Origin: Petrachloros mirabilis ULC683
GTDB lineage: Bacteria; Cyanobacteriota; Cyanobacteriia; Thermosynechococcales; Thermosynechococcaceae
DNA: 64,000 nt
Reading direction: 5' to 3'
Assembly: GCF_009939295.1 (NCBI RefSeq)
Contig: NZ_WVIC01000010.1
Location: 1-64,000, forward strand
The translations under genes and the position numbers were made by a program. This document shows, in pieces, positions 54,551 through 63,487 of this stretch. The first letter of the stretch is position 1; each line of letters opens with the position of its first letter. The notes beneath the pieces are model-generated. The model saw only the letters and a list, made by a program, of their open reading frames with translations, searched no databases and was not told where the DNA came from.

Positions 54551-55091
54551 TTATTGATTCTAGTTACGACACCTTATTAGCTGGCATTTTCCTGTCGTGG
54601 TTGGATAATAAACTCGGTAGAGCTGTAAATCTTGCAATTTACAGTGAGCCAATGCTTAGAAATACTTGATTGAGGCAAGATCAGACAGTCCGCCGACTCA
54701 TTACATGTCCTGAGAAATTCTGAGGCCATCCCTATAGACGACTGCGGTGCGATCGCAGATGCTAAGCCCATAGTCTATTTGAGTTCTAAAAGGATCTGAA
54801 CTGTCCCTTCAAGCTAAGGAAGGTAGGACAGAGAACATTCAAAGTTTGAGGCCGATGCCCAAAAAGGGAAAGTAAAATTTTACTTAACTTATTCGCCCTG
54901 TCAGCAAAATTAAGATACTCTTATAAGAATAAGAACTTCAATCCGACAAAAAATATCAAATTAGCAAGAAAGGTCGTATTTAAAAATTCTCAACAATTTC
55001 TTTGGTCATTTAATTTAATTGATTAAAGGTGACCATCTTCAAAAAAAGCATTTGTAGTCTTCGGAAAACTTGATTTTTGGAGGTTTTGAGA
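54551..55091. other. A+T-rich intergenic region with palindromes, no gene seen
   Basis: The 541 bases hold a TGTAAAT...ATTTACA hairpin (54620s-54640s), one HIP1 octamer near 54750 and a perfect 16-base palindrome AAGTAAAATTTTACTT (54870-54885). The right half is A+T-rich and precedes the small gene at 55092; promoters are likely but I cannot single one out. Confidence 0.45.
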
Positions 55092-55439
55092 ATGGCGGGT
55101 GTAGATTCATTACCAGTCAGGGAAAAAATTGCCTTTCGGAGAAAATCTATTCGAGTCATGGGAGATCTAGTTAATCTGTCTCTGTTGATGGTGCGCGCAG
55201 AAGATTATCAACGGGCAAGGGATAACTTTTTCGCATCGGGACGAAGAATCTGGTTCATGTTTGGCGGCACGGTGAAACGCCTAGATGCAGATCTGGGTAA
55301 CAAAATTGAAGCAAAATTCAACTCAATCAATACAATGCTGGATCAGCAGGCTCCAACAAAAAATGCCCTAGTCTCAGACTTGACGGAATTAGATCGGCTG
55401 ATGCAGATTGCTGTAAAAACAAGCGATGAAGGCATTTAA
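55092..55439 (+). CDS. Small soluble helical protein, unknown function
   Basis: A 115-residue protein (MAGVDSLPVREKIAFRRKSI...) that is predicted helical and basic in its first third, with RRIWFMFGGTVKRLDADLGN in the middle. I do not recognise a family. The ATG at 55092 follows GGAGG by nine bases, a convincing ribosome site, so the gene is probably real. It precedes the catalase-lipoxygenase fusion by about 300 bases, separated by a dispersed repeat. Confidence 0.6.
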   Translation: MAGVDSLPVREKIAFRRKSIRVMGDLVNLSLLMVRAEDYQRARDNFFASGRRIWFMFGGTVKRLDADLGNKIEAKFNSINTMLDQQAPTKNALVSDLTELDRLMQIAVKTSDEGI

Positions 55440-55462: not shown

Positions 55463-55630
55463 AGGCTACTAAGTACACACATCTCTAAGTCGAACCCAAA
55501 ATGCTGCATTCGCCCCCCTAGCTTTGCCATTTTGGGGGGAGGCAGATCGTCAAAGTCCCCCAGAATGGGGGATTTAGGGGGCTAGACAGGATGGATAATA
55601 CAACGAAAACTTGGGTGTACTTCGTAGCCT
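55463..55630. repeat. C-rich palindromic element with terminal inverted repeats
   Basis: The left end AGGCTACTAAGTACACACA (55463-55481) matches the reverse complement of the right end (55612-55630), AGGCTACGAAGTACACCCA, at 17 of 19 bases. This end type is shared with the copy at 2103-2308. Internal C-run/G-run arms (CCATTTTGGGGGG and CCCCCAGAATGGGGG) are present. It lies in the 298-base gap between the small gene and the fusion gene. Confidence 0.75.
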
Positions 55631-55737: not shown

Positions 55738-58191
55738 ATGGATGATTCTTTAGGCTCTACTGCCGCATTAGGCAATTTAGAAAGTGACCCCCGGACACAA
55801 CAGATTGACCCTGCATTCAAAAAGCTGATTTCAAGCATTGCTCAAGCCTTTGGCCGCACAGCTCAAGTCAGGGGTCGGCGAGCCACCCATTCCTATGGAA
55901 CCGTGGCGAAAGGGGTATTAACGGTTTTAGATGACCTGGATATTCCCCCACACAATATCTTTTGTCCCAGCAAGCAATATCCAGTCCTGCTCCGTCATGC
56001 GAATATTAAAGGATTTCGAGATGATGGGATTCGAGATGGACGGGGTGCTACGGTCAGAATCCTCCAGGGCGATGCCCAGGTCTCCCTCTCTGAACTGAAT
56101 TTAGACCAGGGGATTGTAGATATCCTCATGAGTACCGGACGCTCATTTTTCTTGGCAGAGGCACAGTCTTTTGCCCGCTGGGTGGCCGGATCGATGAAGG
56201 TGCGAGAGGCCATGCTTCAGGAGTTTCCCCGAATCACTCCTATTTTTGAGGAAATCATCCGGGATCCTGACTCCTATACCCAACTGCATTACTATTCTGA
56301 AACCACCTACAACTTCACCAGCCTCAACCAAGCATCTTTTTTCCTTAGATATCGCCTGGTCAATGACGACCACCCCACTGCGGATACCGGATGGATTAAT
56401 CCTCAGTTTGTGAAGCTACCCCTAGATTACCTACCCCGCCATGCCAGTGATACGCGACCTGAAACCTATTTGCAGGATGACTTTCGGCAGCGGGTTCTGA
56501 GGGAGGGTGTCCGTTACCGCTTGCAAATTCAACTCCAGCCTGTTTCTGCTGATCCTGAGGTGAATGAACGGGCTAAAGACTGCACGATTCCCTGGGAGGA
56601 AGCGGATTATCCTTTCCACAATGTGGCGGTGCTGGCGTTGGATTGTATTTTGCCAGATGAACTGGCCGAGCCGTTGGAATTTAATCCCTATCATGCGCCC
56701 CCAGAGTTGGGGCTGATCCTAGCTCACTCTGCCACTGAAACGGCTTCTGTGAACCATTTACGCTCTGTTGTTTACCAAATTTCCGCCAATATGCGCAAAT
56801 ATCAAACCCCCAGCTCCAGCCTGGTTGATTGGGGTAGCGGCGGCCAGCCCCCCCTGGCCGAGCAGTACCCCTACGGAGCCGCAGCAACACCCAGGTTTGA
56901 CGAGACCAAGCCACTGCCCGCCAGGGTTCAGCCGAAGCCGCGCTTCTGGGCCAATTTTGGTCTGAAGCTGATTCCCAATCAAGTTTTAGATCCGGCACTA
57001 CCAGAGTTGGGAATTGCTGGGGTTCTGGAGGTGATGGGGCCGAGTGTGGTCAGCCATATGCCACCGAATTTGACCCGAACTCGCCCGGATAAATTCAGTG
57101 ATGATTTTTTTGTCGAGCGCCGTTTGAATGGCTTTAATCCGGGGAAACTCAACCGGGTCTACCATCAGCCCTGGCAATATCAGGTGCGCTATGACTGTAG
57201 TCAGTACGGTGTCGAGCCTGCTGGGATTCTGCCATCACTAATTACGGCGCGCTTTACCTTTAGCGGCCAGTACCTGCATGCTCACTCCATTGAGTTCACC
57301 CTGGATGGAAAAACTGAAACTCAGTGTCCGGGTGACGGGGATTGGGAGTGGAGCAAACGCCTCTTTCGCTGCTCTGAGTTTGTGTTTCAAGAGATTCAAT
57401 CTCACCTGGGTCGCGCCCACATGAACCTGGATCAGTATGCCATGGCCTACTACCGCAATGTGGTGAACAATCCCATTCACCTGTTGTTAGAACCCCATTT
57501 AGATGGGCTTTTGAACGTCAATAAGCTGGGGGCTAGTCTGATCGCTGGCCCCACGGGCTTTATTCCAGAGGCATCGGCGCTGACCCCTGAGGAGGTTGAT
57601 GGGGTGCTTAAGGATGAAATTAGCTGTCTGAGCTATCACTGGCGTCCCCATGTCCAGGCGTTGCCAGATTTGATCCTCAATCATCACTTTGACCGGGCTG
57701 CGATCGCAATGTGGACTCTCCTAGAAGAGTACGTCAGCGGGTTCTTTGCCGAACATCAGGGGGGGATTGATACCCATTGGTCAGAAATTGAGGGCATGTC
57801 TGCGGATCTAGTTGCCCACTCTATTCTAAAACCAGAGCTGGGGACACTGGCCATTCAAAGCAGTGCCGATCTTCAGCAGCTCTGTGTCTATGTGATCTAT
57901 CTCAGTACCTTCTTCCACTCCTGGGTCAATAACAAGCAGTACGAAGATGGCGGCGATGTCAGCTATGGCACCATCGGCCTGTGGAATAGCCATGATCCAG
58001 CCTACAATCCCCAGCTTGTTGCCCAGAGAGAAGCCAGACAGGTAATGCTCCTGTGGACCCTATCCCATGTCCGCTATAACCCCATTATGGATGTCGGGCC
58101 TGCCGTTCTCAAGGACTTGATCTGGCAACGGCGGCAACAGATTGAGCCAGGGATTCCCCTCGCCAATCTGATGATGAGTACCAATATTTAA
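55738..58191 (+). CDS. Catalase-like heme domain fused to lipoxygenase (cAOS/LOX-type fusion)
   Basis: An 817-residue two-domain enzyme. The first ~370 residues are a catalase-related heme domain. The distal His51 is preceded by Thr50 (RRATHSYG), as in allene-oxide-synthase-type members, not the Val-His of true catalases, and the proximal RxxxY is RSVVY (Tyr346). Residues ~395-817 are a lipoxygenase with HxxxxH (His556, His561), a third His727 with Asn731 (FHSWVNN), and the C-terminal Ile817, which completes the iron site. Gly597 aligns with the Coffa position, associated with R-type products in many LOXs. Known relatives oxygenate fatty acids and convert the hydroperoxides to allene oxides or bicyclobutanes. 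No ribosome site decides between GTG 55732 and ATG 55738. Confidence 0.88.
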   Translation: MDDSLGSTAALGNLESDPRTQQIDPAFKKLISSIAQAFGRTAQVRGRRATHSYGTVAKGVLTVLDDLDIPPHNIFCPSKQYPVLLRHANIKGFRDDGIRDGRGATVRILQGDAQVSLSELNLDQGIVDILMSTGRSFFLAEAQSFARWVAGSMKVREAMLQEFPRITPIFEEIIRDPDSYTQLHYYSETTYNFTSLNQASFFLRYRLVNDDHPTADTGWINPQFVKLPLDYLPRHASDTRPETYLQDDFRQRVLREGVRYRLQIQLQPVSADPEVNERAKDCTIPWEEADYPFHNVAVLALDCILPDELAEPLEFNPYHAPPELGLILAHSATETASVNHLRSVVYQISANMRKYQTPSSSLVDWGSGGQPPLAEQYPYGAAATPRFDETKPLPARVQPKPRFWANFGLKLIPNQVLDPALPELGIAGVLEVMGPSVVSHMPPNLTRTRPDKFSDDFFVERRLNGFNPGKLNRVYHQPWQYQVRYDCSQYGVEPAGILPSLITARFTFSGQYLHAHSIEFTLDGKTETQCPGDGDWEWSKRLFRCSEFVFQEIQSHLGRAHMNLDQYAMAYYRNVVNNPIHLLLEPHLDGLLNVNKLGASLIAGPTGFIPEASALTPEEVDGVLKDEISCLSYHWRPHVQALPDLILNHHFDRAAIAMWTLLEEYVSGFFAEHQGGIDTHWSEIEGMSADLVAHSILKPELGTLAIQSSADLQQLCVYVIYLSTFFHSWVNNKQYEDGGDVSYGTIGLWNSHDPAYNPQLVAQREARQVMLLWTLSHVRYNPIMDVGPAVLKDLIWQRRQQIEPGIPLANLMMSTNI

Positions 58192-59904: not shown

Positions 59905-62148
59905 CTATGCCTTCAACTTACAAAGTGTATTCCAGGCATTCGGAATATCTATAGAGCAACTGGCATAGTTCCAACACAGTAAATCTTCATTAAGAAAGTG
60001 ATCGTATTTCTCTATCGACTTGTTTTGCACGAGTGCAGCTAGATGCAGAGAATCGGGTGGTTCACTAGCCATCAATGATTGTAGGTGATTTATTACTTCG
60101 CTGGGGGATAGGTCTTGAAGTGCGATCGCAACCCCATCTCCCGCAACTTTCAGTCCACGACTATGGAGAAGCAACTGAATCGTATTGGACACGACACTTC
60201 CCATCCAGGGGAAGAGGAGAGTCTGATTTCCGTAACTTAAAATCTGGGTTCTATTGAGATTGAAACGCAGAAAATTTTCACGAGCTTCCTGGAGTAAGTT
60301 TTGTGCCATTTGATCTAAAAAAATTGGAATCTCTTCAGAGTTGTAAATGCCATACATTTCCTGTCGTATCTGGTCATGAATTGAGCCGCCATTGCCGCTA
60401 AACCTCGGAACTCGTCCTGCGGATGACCTTTTGACATCAGCAACCTTGCGTTCAATATCCACTGAAAGCACTTGCCAGCGGCGTCCTGCCAAAATAATCA
60501 ACATGCCCTCCACCAGTGGAAAATCAATGGGCAAGGTGCCCAGGGCTTTGCCGCTGGTGACAATCCGATACTCTTCTGGCGTTTGAAAGGCAGTGTAAAA
60601 ACTGTAGTGGTTGACCAGACGCTCTCCCTTGAGACCAAGAATCAAAAGTCCATCATGAGTTTGCTGAATCAAGTCCTGCTTAGCAATCTGACGTAAAAGC
60701 TCAATAAATAGACTCTGCCCTACCTGACCAAAAGGGCCTGTCTCACAGAGTACCTGCCATAACTGGGCAGCGTTAATGCCCCCATACTGGGCAATCAAGG
60801 ACAAGATCTGCTGAATCAAGGTGGAGAGGTGCATTTTGTTGATCAAAGGCGGCTCACACCATCTCTGAAACACCATTAAATTGATGATGGCAATTGTCTG
60901 AATTAGAGCCGGATGTAGGGTGTCTTGAGGAGCAGTCTGAGGCGTAACTTCAGGCTCAGAAATATAGAATCGAATGATCGCCGGATCTCCCTCCGTGCGG
61001 CCAGAGCGTCCGAGGCGCTGGCGCGTACTAGAGACAGAAAAGGGGGCACCCACTTGGGCAATTGACTTTACAGAGCCAATATCTATTCCCATTTCCAGCG
61101 TTGTTGTGCAAACCACATTGGCAGGTTTGTTATTTTTCAGTGCCTTTTCTGCCTCTTCTCGAATATCCTTAGACAGGCTGCCGTGGTGAGGCCAGAACTC
61201 ATTGGGGACACGCTGTATTTCACAAAAGCGGCGAAGTTGATCCGCATAGGCTTCCACCTCAGATCGACTGTTGATAAAGATGAGATTTGTCTCTCCTCGC
61301 AGGACTTTAAATAGATGAGCTGCAATATCCATCTTGTCCTGAGCGTGATCAGATCCCTCAGACTCATGCTCTAAATCAAGTTCCTTCTCTAAGATGGGGG
61401 GAACCTGGCGGTAGCCTCGCACCTGAATGCGAATTTCTCGCCCATCATCTTCACCAGATTCAATAATTCTCACATGCGGGGCTTTTCCGGTTCTCAAGAA
61501 CTCGGCAGCCAGCCCCATATCACCTAAGGTCGCACTCAGACCAATTCGAGGGACTTTACGGCGAACAACCTGTTCAACCCGGTGCATTAATGATTGCAGT
61601 TGTTTACCTCGCTCTGACCCAATAAAAGCATGGAGTTCATCTACAATCAGATAGTTGAGATTCTGAAATATCGTTGCCAGATCAGAGCCATGACGGATGA
61701 AAAGTGCCTCCAGCGACTCAGGGGTAATAATTAAGATTCCAGTAGGCTGCTTCAATAGCCGTTGCTTACGCCCGGCATCAACGTCCCCATGCCAAGGCGT
61801 AACGGCAATATCGAGATCTTCTCCTATTCCTGAAAGCCGACGGTACTGATCGTTAATCAGAGCTTTTAAGGGGCTGATGCACAACGTCCGGATGCCAACA
61901 CCCGGATCTTCCATGAGTCGAGAGAAGATGGGTAAAAAAGCAGCTTCAGTTTTGCCCCCAGCCGTTGCAGCAGAAATAATCAGATCAGTTTCACCCTCCA
62001 AAATCCATGGAATAGCTTCTTCTTGGATAGGGCGTAGCGATGGCCACTTCTGCTGCCAAATCCAGCGCTGAACACCAGAATGTAAACGGTTAAACCCAGT
62101 GGAGACTTGTGAATTGAAATTAGAGTTTGAAGGAGGCAAGGTTGTCAT
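59905..62148 (-). CDS. Lhr-like superfamily 2 DNA helicase (BrxHI-like)
   Basis: A 747-residue helicase of the Lhr/BrxHI type. Motifs in order are LRPIQEEAIPWIL (Q), Walker A SAATAGGKTEAA (Lys67-Thr68), LCISPLKALINDQ (Ia), VDELHAF (DExH at 170-173), GLSATLGD (III) and RQRLGRSGR (VI). A C-terminal winged-helix/Lhr-type region follows. All ATPase residues appear intact. The gene overlaps the ATPase gene upstream by 29 bases, so the two proteins are probably made in fixed ratio. In type 2 BREX phage-defence clusters brxD and brxHI occur together; this pair is similar, but other BREX genes are not seen in the window. Confidence 0.85.
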   Translation of the reverse strand: MTTLPPSNSNFNSQVSTGFNRLHSGVQRWIWQQKWPSLRPIQEEAIPWILEGETDLIISAATAGGKTEAAFLPIFSRLMEDPGVGIRTLCISPLKALINDQYRRLSGIGEDLDIAVTPWHGDVDAGRKQRLLKQPTGILIITPESLEALFIRHGSDLATIFQNLNYLIVDELHAFIGSERGKQLQSLMHRVEQVVRRKVPRIGLSATLGDMGLAAEFLRTGKAPHVRIIESGEDDGREIRIQVRGYRQVPPILEKELDLEHESEGSDHAQDKMDIAAHLFKVLRGETNLIFINSRSEVEAYADQLRRFCEIQRVPNEFWPHHGSLSKDIREEAEKALKNNKPANVVCTTTLEMGIDIGSVKSIAQVGAPFSVSSTRQRLGRSGRTEGDPAIIRFYISEPEVTPQTAPQDTLHPALIQTIAIINLMVFQRWCEPPLINKMHLSTLIQQILSLIAQYGGINAAQLWQVLCETGPFGQVGQSLFIELLRQIAKQDLIQQTHDGLLILGLKGERLVNHYSFYTAFQTPEEYRIVTSGKALGTLPIDFPLVEGMLIILAGRRWQVLSVDIERKVADVKRSSAGRVPRFSGNGGSIHDQIRQEMYGIYNSEEIPIFLDQMAQNLLQEARENFLRFNLNRTQILSYGNQTLLFPWMGSVVSNTIQLLLHSRGLKVAGDGVAIALQDLSPSEVINHLQSLMASEPPDSLHLAALVQNKSIEKYDHFLNEDLLCWNYASCSIDIPNAWNTLCKLKA

Positions 62149-63487
62149 AATCCTCCTTTTCTGTGTCTACAAGCATTTCTGGCAATGTTCCAGCATTATT
62201 GTTTGTAACTTCCCCCTCTTCAAGGGGCAATAGATCAGGATTCACCTCTTGCTGGATTGTAATCTTGCCAATTAAGTCTTCAATAGCAACATTGGGATTC
62301 TGTTCTAACACTGCCAGCAAGTTAATAAAAGCAGTGATGGTACTTCTCGGTGTCCGAAAATAGGCTTCTCCCACTTTCTGAAAACAATGCTGCATAAATT
62401 TCTGAATCCCGAGATCAGAAATGAGATACTTTTCGGGTTCTCCTCCGGCAAAGACATGTCGGATCTTAGTCAGAAGGACGTAAAGATCTTCCTGGCTTAG
62501 ATTGGCTAGACGAATAACCGGATGGCTAAAGTCCACAATGCCGTTACCCGCAAAGGTATTTTCAGCCAATCGAGATTGAAGGGCTTCGTAGCTATACAAC
62601 CCTCTGCGGGTATCCATCAGAAACTCGGGAGTTCCCCCCAGAACAAAACCCAGTCCTTCGGAGATTCCCTGAAGACTGTCATTGAGGATGCGGAGGATTT
62701 GCTCATAATTACTTTTGCGAGCCTGAGTATTGGATAACTTATACAAATTAACCAGTTCATCCAGACAGATTACCAAGCCTTCGTATCCAGCCAATTTCAC
62801 AAATCGAGCAAACAGCTTGAGCTGATCGTAAAAGTTTGTGTCATCAATAATCGTGCGAACTCCCAGAGCTTTTTTGGCATCGGTCTTCGTACTGAACTCT
62901 CCTCTTAACCAACGCACTGAACTCGATTTAAGTAAGTCATTGCCGGTATCATGACCGCGCCAATAGGCAGCAATAACTTCAGCAAAGTCATAGCCACCAA
63001 CCATCTCAGACAGATTTTCGAGGCGTTCTTGAATAATGACTTCTGGGGTTACATTCTGAGTGCGTCCTGCCATCATCGTAGAGCTAACGAACTTCTCAAC
63101 AATGCTGGCTAGTGCCCCACCCTCAGGTTTTGATCGAGTTGCCAGATTTCTCATTAACTCTGCGTAAAGAGAACGAGTCTGACCTTTAGAGGCATGAAGC
63201 CGACGATCTGGGGTGAGATCGGCATGGGCGCTCACCAGTTTCTTCTTAAGTGCGATCGCTCTGACCAGAGAGAGGAAAAAGGTTTTGCCTGAACCATATT
63301 CACCAATGACAAACCGAATACCAGAGCCACCATCAGCAATTCGCTCAAGATCTTGGATCAGAGCTTCCAGCTCCCGGACTCGTCCAACCTGAATTAAATG
63401 CTGACCGCTGCGAGGAACCACACCTGCCCGAAGGGACTGAATGACAGCATCACGGTCTTTAGGTTTGATTTGAACTTTGTTACTCAT
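62120..63487 (-). CDS. DUF2791/BrxD-like P-loop ATPase
   Basis: A 455-residue AAA-like ATPase. After an N-terminal RDAVIQSLRAGVVPRSG come Walker A GEYGSGKTFFLS (Lys68-Thr69) and Walker B LVICLDELVNLYKL (Asp243-Glu244). A sensor-like LGGTPEFLMDTRRGLYSYEA and a C-terminal helical region with RTPRSTITAFINLL follow. This layout is the DUF2791 family, found as BrxD and in TerB-linked operons. It starts with an ATGA overlap with the TerB_C-like gene and overlaps the helicase by 29 bases. DNA processing or surveillance is a family-level inference. Confidence 0.85.
   Translation of the reverse strand: MSNKVQIKPKDRDAVIQSLRAGVVPRSGQHLIQVGRVRELEALIQDLERIADGGSGIRFVIGEYGSGKTFFLSLVRAIALKKKLVSAHADLTPDRRLHASKGQTRSLYAELMRNLATRSKPEGGALASIVEKFVSSTMMAGRTQNVTPEVIIQERLENLSEMVGGYDFAEVIAAYWRGHDTGNDLLKSSSVRWLRGEFSTKTDAKKALGVRTIIDDTNFYDQLKLFARFVKLAGYEGLVICLDELVNLYKLSNTQARKSNYEQILRILNDSLQGISEGLGFVLGGTPEFLMDTRRGLYSYEALQSRLAENTFAGNGIVDFSHPVIRLANLSQEDLYVLLTKIRHVFAGGEPEKYLISDLGIQKFMQHCFQKVGEAYFRTPRSTITAFINLLAVLEQNPNVAIEDLIGKITIQQEVNPDLLPLEEGEVTNNNAGTLPEMLVDTEKEDYDNLASFKL

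Follow-up and report, generated by a model that had tools for sequence, protein, structure and literature searches.

A catalase-related heme domain–lipoxygenase fusion with serine at the distal asparagine position in Petrachloros mirabilis

The first 64,000 nucleotides of contig NZ_WVIC01000010.1 of the cyanobacterium Petrachloros mirabilis ULC683 (hereafter the window) carry an open reading frame in which a catalase-related heme domain precedes a lipoxygenase (LOX). A first-pass annotation compared this protein with the fusions of coral, Anabaena and Acaryochloris, and suggested that an altered distal residue in its heme pocket may give a different product. The locus raises the question of what such a fusion makes and how much of the answer hangs on that one residue. 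The features discussed below are listed in Table 1.

Table 1. Coordinates of the fusion, its domains and key residues, the neighbouring features and the decayed heme domain of a relative
Feature	Position	Strand	Evidence or remark
Fusion ORF, 817 aa (P0001)	55738..58191	+	Catalase-related heme domain + mini-lipoxygenase; ORF translation, Pfam, PDB sequence match, AlphaFold model
Catalase-related heme domain, residues 1 to about 365	55738..56832	+	Alignment to cAOS residues 60-365
Mini-lipoxygenase domain, residues about 376-817	56863..58188	+	Pfam PF00305; 5ek8 match
Thr50-His51, distal pair (= cAOS Thr66-His67)	55885..55890	+	Residue check, alignment to cAOS
Ser132 (AGT), position of cAOS distal Asn137	56131..56133	+	Alignments
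Arg342-Ser-Val-Val-Tyr346, proximal heme ligand motif	56761..56775	+	Residue check, alignment to cAOS
His556 and His561, LOX iron ligands	57403..57420	+	Residue check, alignment
Gly598, Coffa position	57529..57531	+	Residue check, alignment
His727 and Asn731, LOX iron ligands	57916..57930	+	Residue check, alignment
Ile817, C-terminal carboxylate ligand	58186..58188	+	Residue check, alignment
Small upstream gene; product of 120 aa (115 aa if it starts at ATG 55092), predicted to fold as a four-helix bundle	55077..55439	+	Conserved directly upstream of fusion
G+C-rich genome-wide repeat copy	55557..55581	+	Between small gene and fusion
Decayed heme domain, Anabaena lutea	L051 5959-6470; L081 1343-1854		Internal deletion + stops

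The frame opens with an ATG at 55738 and is free of internal stops through 58191 on the + strand, with stops interrupting the opposite strand over the same interval. That it encodes a complete LOX preceded by a catalase-related heme domain, as first annotated, is borne out by family, sequence and fold matches. In Pfam, the protein matches Lipoxygenase (PF00305) at 5e-9 and Catalase (PF00199) at 3e-5, the latter slightly below the curated cut-off; NCBIfam assigns it no family. In a PDB sequence search, residues 45-358 match the coral cAOS-LOX (3dy5/1u5u) and the C-terminal part matches Cyanothece 9R-LOX (5ek8) and other LOX. An AlphaFold model (mean pLDDT 74; 17 sequences in the alignment) finds 3dy5 as its best fold match (E 4.7e-30), followed by 5ek8 and 1u5u, and it compares with 1u5u at a TM of 0.75 by target length (Foldseek), the model being weakly confident around residues 46-52 and 90-101, near the heme pocket. 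Five other genomes of the window's family encode full-length orthologs (72-82% identity), as do a Crocosphaera MAG (73%) and several Nostocaceae (63-65%). Retention of all key residues by these orthologs, across a range of 63-82% identity, indicates that the fusion is real and not a chance arrangement.

Alignment of the heme domain to coral cAOS pairs R48, R86 and K91 of the window protein with R64, R102 and K107, and R342, Y346 and R353 with R349, Y353 and R360, so that the proximal Tyr ligand and the propionate/proximal Arg set of catalase-related AOS are present. The aligned Lys107 contacts the substrate carboxylate in cAOS (PMC5617202). Residue checks also find Thr50-His51, previously read in place of Val-His, and the proximal RSVVY motif from Arg342 to Tyr346, and Phe145 stands at the position of cAOS Leu150. 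The assignment of Ser132 to the distal Asn position was upheld: it falls in the column of cAOS Asn137 in four MAFFT modes, an alignment placing Asn there did not appear, and pairwise BLASTP with cAOS, L080, L063, L052 and L056 agrees. The paired motifs DILMSTG (window) and DIVMNTG make the match unambiguous at this position. For L064 the pairwise BLAST slipped by one column, giving Ser for Asn, and the multiple alignments give Asn; in two other catalase-like proteins (L024, L065) the distal site is not reliably alignable. A true (H2O2) catalase is ruled out by Thr-His instead of Val-His and by Ser132 instead of the distal Asn.

The LOX domain is equally complete. The iron ligands His556, His561, His727 and Asn731 and the terminal Ile817 were all confirmed by residue check and are invariant among 28 aligned sequences. 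The Coffa glycine was also correctly recognised but misnumbered by one, as residue 597 is Leu and the glycine is Gly598. This R-type residue is Gly in all LOX compared, except for Ala in the Anabaena PCC 7120-type protein (L080). By its iron ligands and its Coffa Gly, the window LOX fits a predicted R-specific lipoxygenase.

Judged by sequence, the CHARACTERISED enzyme nearest to the window protein is the Acaryochloris fusion, not the Anabaena bicyclobutane-maker. The catalase-related AOS / R-LOX fusion of Acaryochloris marina (Gao 2009, 2010) has an architecture identical to that of the window protein and belongs to a different genus of the same family. Its congeneric orthologs L003 and L042, the second from a named Acaryochloris MAG, match the window protein at 80-82% identity from end to end and likewise have Ser132 and Gly598, and in the LOX tree the window LOX groups with L002, L003 and L004 (98/94). 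Through these Acaryochloris congeners, we infer orthology between the window protein and the characterised protein of A. marina MBIC11017. The second Acaryochloris genome with an ortholog at 80-82%, G019, is placed in that genus because its contig matches the plasmids of A. marina MBIC10699 and 'Moss Beach' at 90-95%; with a profile covering both heme-domain clades, only one such gene was found in it. Two genes lie downstream of this fusion and convergent to it, one of the animal-haem-peroxidase family (PF03098) and the other for a second LOX (L069, 7516-11193). A search of a plasmid collection returned no cyanobacterial fusion, only rhizobial relatives.

The coral cAOS-LOX of Plexaura homomalla (3dy5, 1u5u) resembles the window protein in domain order, the pocket Arg residues, Thr-His, Tyr, the Lys107 equivalent and the Coffa Gly. 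However, the heme domains are only 30% identical, Ser132 and Phe145 replace Asn137 and Leu150 of cAOS, a ten-residue insert distinguishes the two before the distal strand, and the window protein has 817 aa against the 1066-residue coral chain.

Quite probably, the fusion is the ortholog of its Acaryochloris counterpart and acts as a bifunctional oxylipin synthase, one of the cyanobacterial catalase-LOX enzymes. The substrates, regiochemistry, products and heme occupancy that we infer for it follow the literature on A. marina, whose catalase-LOX converts linoleate to 9R-HpODE and alpha-linolenate to 12R-HpOTrE (PMC11719350; PMC10454662). By its title, the Gao 2009 study (cited in PMC10813956) describes the heme domain of that enzyme as a catalase-related AOS that works through an ionic intermediate. 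On this model, the C-terminal iron LOX would dioxygenate C18 polyunsaturated fatty acids, turning linoleate into the 9R- and alpha-linolenate into the 12R-hydroperoxide, and hand the product on to the heme domain. The ferric heme, with Tyr346 as its ligand, would then act together with Thr50-His51 to open the O-O bond to give an epoxy-allylic cation, and loss of a proton would convert this cation into an allene oxide, with perhaps some epoxyalcohol formed by water capture. Ser132, at the distal Asn position, would probably tune the rate of this reaction and not its chemistry. A genome search found no other LOX in the window's genome, which contains five fatty-acid-desaturase-family ORFs that could supply polyunsaturated substrate, some members of that family being carotenoid enzymes. 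Allene oxide cyclase (PF06351) was not found in this genome in a search run without a positive control.

The same cation might instead be cleaved to aldehydes or trapped by water without being deprotonated, which would make the heme domain a hydroperoxide lyase (HPL) or mainly an epoxyalcohol synthase. The A. marina enzyme reportedly gives much epoxyalcohol from linoleate 9R-hydroperoxide, in keeping with the second of these. A lyase would agree with Phe145, since the reported switches from coral HPL to AOS are F150L and YS176-177NL (PMC5617202), and the window residue matches Phe150 of coral HPL and not Leu150 of cAOS. However, Phe is usual at this position in bacterial members, including coral-like ones that keep the distal Asn, and is hence not diagnostic of HPL. 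The second switch site is no guide either, as the equivalent of cAOS 176-177 could not be reliably placed in the window protein and Asn-Leu was counted at cAOS 175-176, one off the published numbers, so the site was left unused. A heme domain of this kind is therefore unlikely, and allene oxide synthesis is the preferred reading.

The distal residue bears on a further alternative, in which replacing Asn by Ser would alter the product throughout the clade or leave it with a peroxidase-like heme domain that works much more slowly. All other full-length clade members (Acaryochloris and its kin, the Crocosphaera MAG and several Nostocaceae) have Ser132, always encoded as AGT or AGC, except for a single Anabaena branch (L048/L077) with Gly (GGT). 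The distal Asn is retained in coral and in the coral-like cyanobacterial proteins (L052, L056, L057, L059, L062, L064); L063, encoded on a rhizobial plasmid, and the fusion of the Anabaena PCC 7120 type have it too. These codons are compatible with a one-step path AAY -> AGY -> GGY, and the change may well have run in that direction. Independent genomes and the four alignment modes rule out a sequencing error or a chance alignment behind Ser132, which is common to the other full-length fusions of the clade and so is no oddity of one protein; on these comparisons it is a fixed lineage signature and not an idiosyncratic change in the window protein. Such fixation, broken only by the Gly branch, is what a distinct product might lead one to expect. 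Additionally, in A. lutea (L051/L081), which belongs to the Gly branch, the LOX frame is open but the heme domain has decayed through an internal deletion and stop codons, as though this branch could do without the heme step. However, the remaining pocket residues are strongly conserved in the Ser clade, which argues for a working enzyme. Moreover, mutants at Asn137 of cAOS and at the equivalent residue of human catalase are reported, in the title of reference 25 of PMC5617202, to alter rate and not chemistry, so that by this title the residue is non-essential and its absence does not disqualify a catalase-related AOS. A new product from Ser132, as proposed in the first-pass annotation, is consequently not expected, and this alternative is decidedly improbable. 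The Ser clade is a natural, lineage-wide Asn-to-Ser version of a residue studied by mutation in the coral and human enzymes, and lets its role be examined where evolution chose Ser.

Of the three models originally named, Acaryochloris stands on orthologs at 80-82%, whereas the Anabaena PCC 7120 type proved remote. The Anabaena / Nostoc PCC 7120 fusion (773 aa, WP_010994078.1) is represented here by L080, which is identified as this type by its length from Met of 773 aa, equal to that of the published protein (PMC10177866), and by the published Ana-rLOX residues N130, G260, S437, V421 and V40 (PMC6148764), all five of which fit it at one offset. Like the window protein, it joins a catalase-related domain with Thr-His to a mini-LOX, but the two are only 32.5% identical in the heme domain and 35.6% in the LOX, and L080 has the distal Asn and a Coffa Ala where the window protein has Ser132 and Gly598. 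Identity with this bicyclobutane synthase is ruled out at 33-36%, and a bicyclobutane or allylic epoxide synthase of its kind, for which the common domain order and reaction class might speak, is for the same reasons very improbable.

LOX and heme functions can also be encoded as separate genes in an operon (review, PMC11507377), and the relatives of the window LOX include examples of both arrangements. In four loci (L056, L057, L059, L062) a coral-like heme gene lies separately downstream of a LOX gene, and in L052 a coral-like heme domain is fused at the N terminus of the LOX. The LOX domains of L056 and L052 are 58-61% identical to that of the window, whereas their heme partners are 44-47% identical to coral cAOS, only 30-32% to the window heme domain, and keep the Asn. 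All five loci thus resemble the window in having a related LOX and differ from it in the heme partner. The coupling of related LOX to different heme proteins, together with a LOX tree that joins the L056/L052-type LOX with the window subfamily, apart from other LOX, shows one LOX lineage paired with two heme partners, a case of partner exchange. In the heme-domain tree, L063, L064 and L080 sit on long branches, and their deep placement was not used. Ser-type and coral-like partners on LOX this closely related provide a clean system for the contribution of the heme domain. Similarly, LOX-only ORFs of Brasilonema and Scytonema (L054, L055) nest within the Nostocaceae fusions in the LOX tree (100/98), which suggests that their heme domain was lost; no heme-domain remnant was found when looked for at these two loci. 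Other architectures occur in the same LOX subfamily: a 1366-aa protein of Phormidesmis combines Lipase_3, jacalin and laminin G with LOX (L060, 3496-7593), and a 926-aa protein of Nostocaceae combines laminin G with LOX (L068, 1568-4345), each beside another LOX gene.

A small and rare gene directly upstream of the fusion appears to be linked to it. In each of the five other fusion-bearing genomes of the family a homolog (48-63% identity) immediately precedes the fusion, and a homolog at 56% does so in the Crocosphaera MAG. At a threshold of at least 40% identity, a homolog is present in 6/6 fusion-bearing family genomes and in 1/23 fusion-less ones (n=29; Fisher p = 1.5e-5, with kinship ignored); in the lone exception it lies near LOX, alpha/beta hydrolase and P450 genes. 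A search of 386 cyanobacterial genomes yielded one other with a homolog, not adjoining a LOX. Structure prediction gives its product as a four-helix bundle (pLDDT 85, pTM 0.77), which has no significant Pfam or PDB fold match and no NCBIfam family. Judged by eye, some homologs appear to begin with a signal peptide or a lipoprotein signal. The gene is a concrete candidate for a new component of cyanobacterial oxylipin metabolism. The copy of the repeat CCCCCAGAATGGGGGATTTAGGGGG that lies between the two genes probably explains the wider gap separating them in the window; this repeat has 176 sites in the genome at up to 3 mismatches and none in a reversed-pattern control.

A bolder proposal would have the Ser132 clade be a functionally distinct oxylipin synthase whose partner is the upstream four-helix-bundle protein; this protein might, for example, carry or regulate the lipid substrate or the unstable epoxide in the periplasm or at the membrane edge. 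The proposal would also have the LOX lineage swap Ser-type and coral-like Asn-type heme partners to change product. We regard this combination as speculative and doubtful.

Several other loci were noted in passing. In L096 (G007:C38, 2485-7365), genes for a LOX, an alpha/beta hydrolase, a cytochrome P450 and a homolog of the small protein lie on one strand, a possible oxylipin operon, and lipoprotein-like relatives of the small protein (weakly DUF4363-like) occur in G007, G008 and G023. On the symbiosis plasmid pNGR234a of Sinorhizobium fredii (L063, 4985-11038), two catalase-related ORFs are adjacent, the second apparently annotated too short, and a di-heme cytochrome c peroxidase and a patatin-like phospholipase in the same region may form an oxylipin cluster with them. 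Towards the end of the window itself (59905-63487, - strand), PADLOC matches to SngC (8e-278) and SngB (8e-180) reveal part of a Shango anti-phage defence system.
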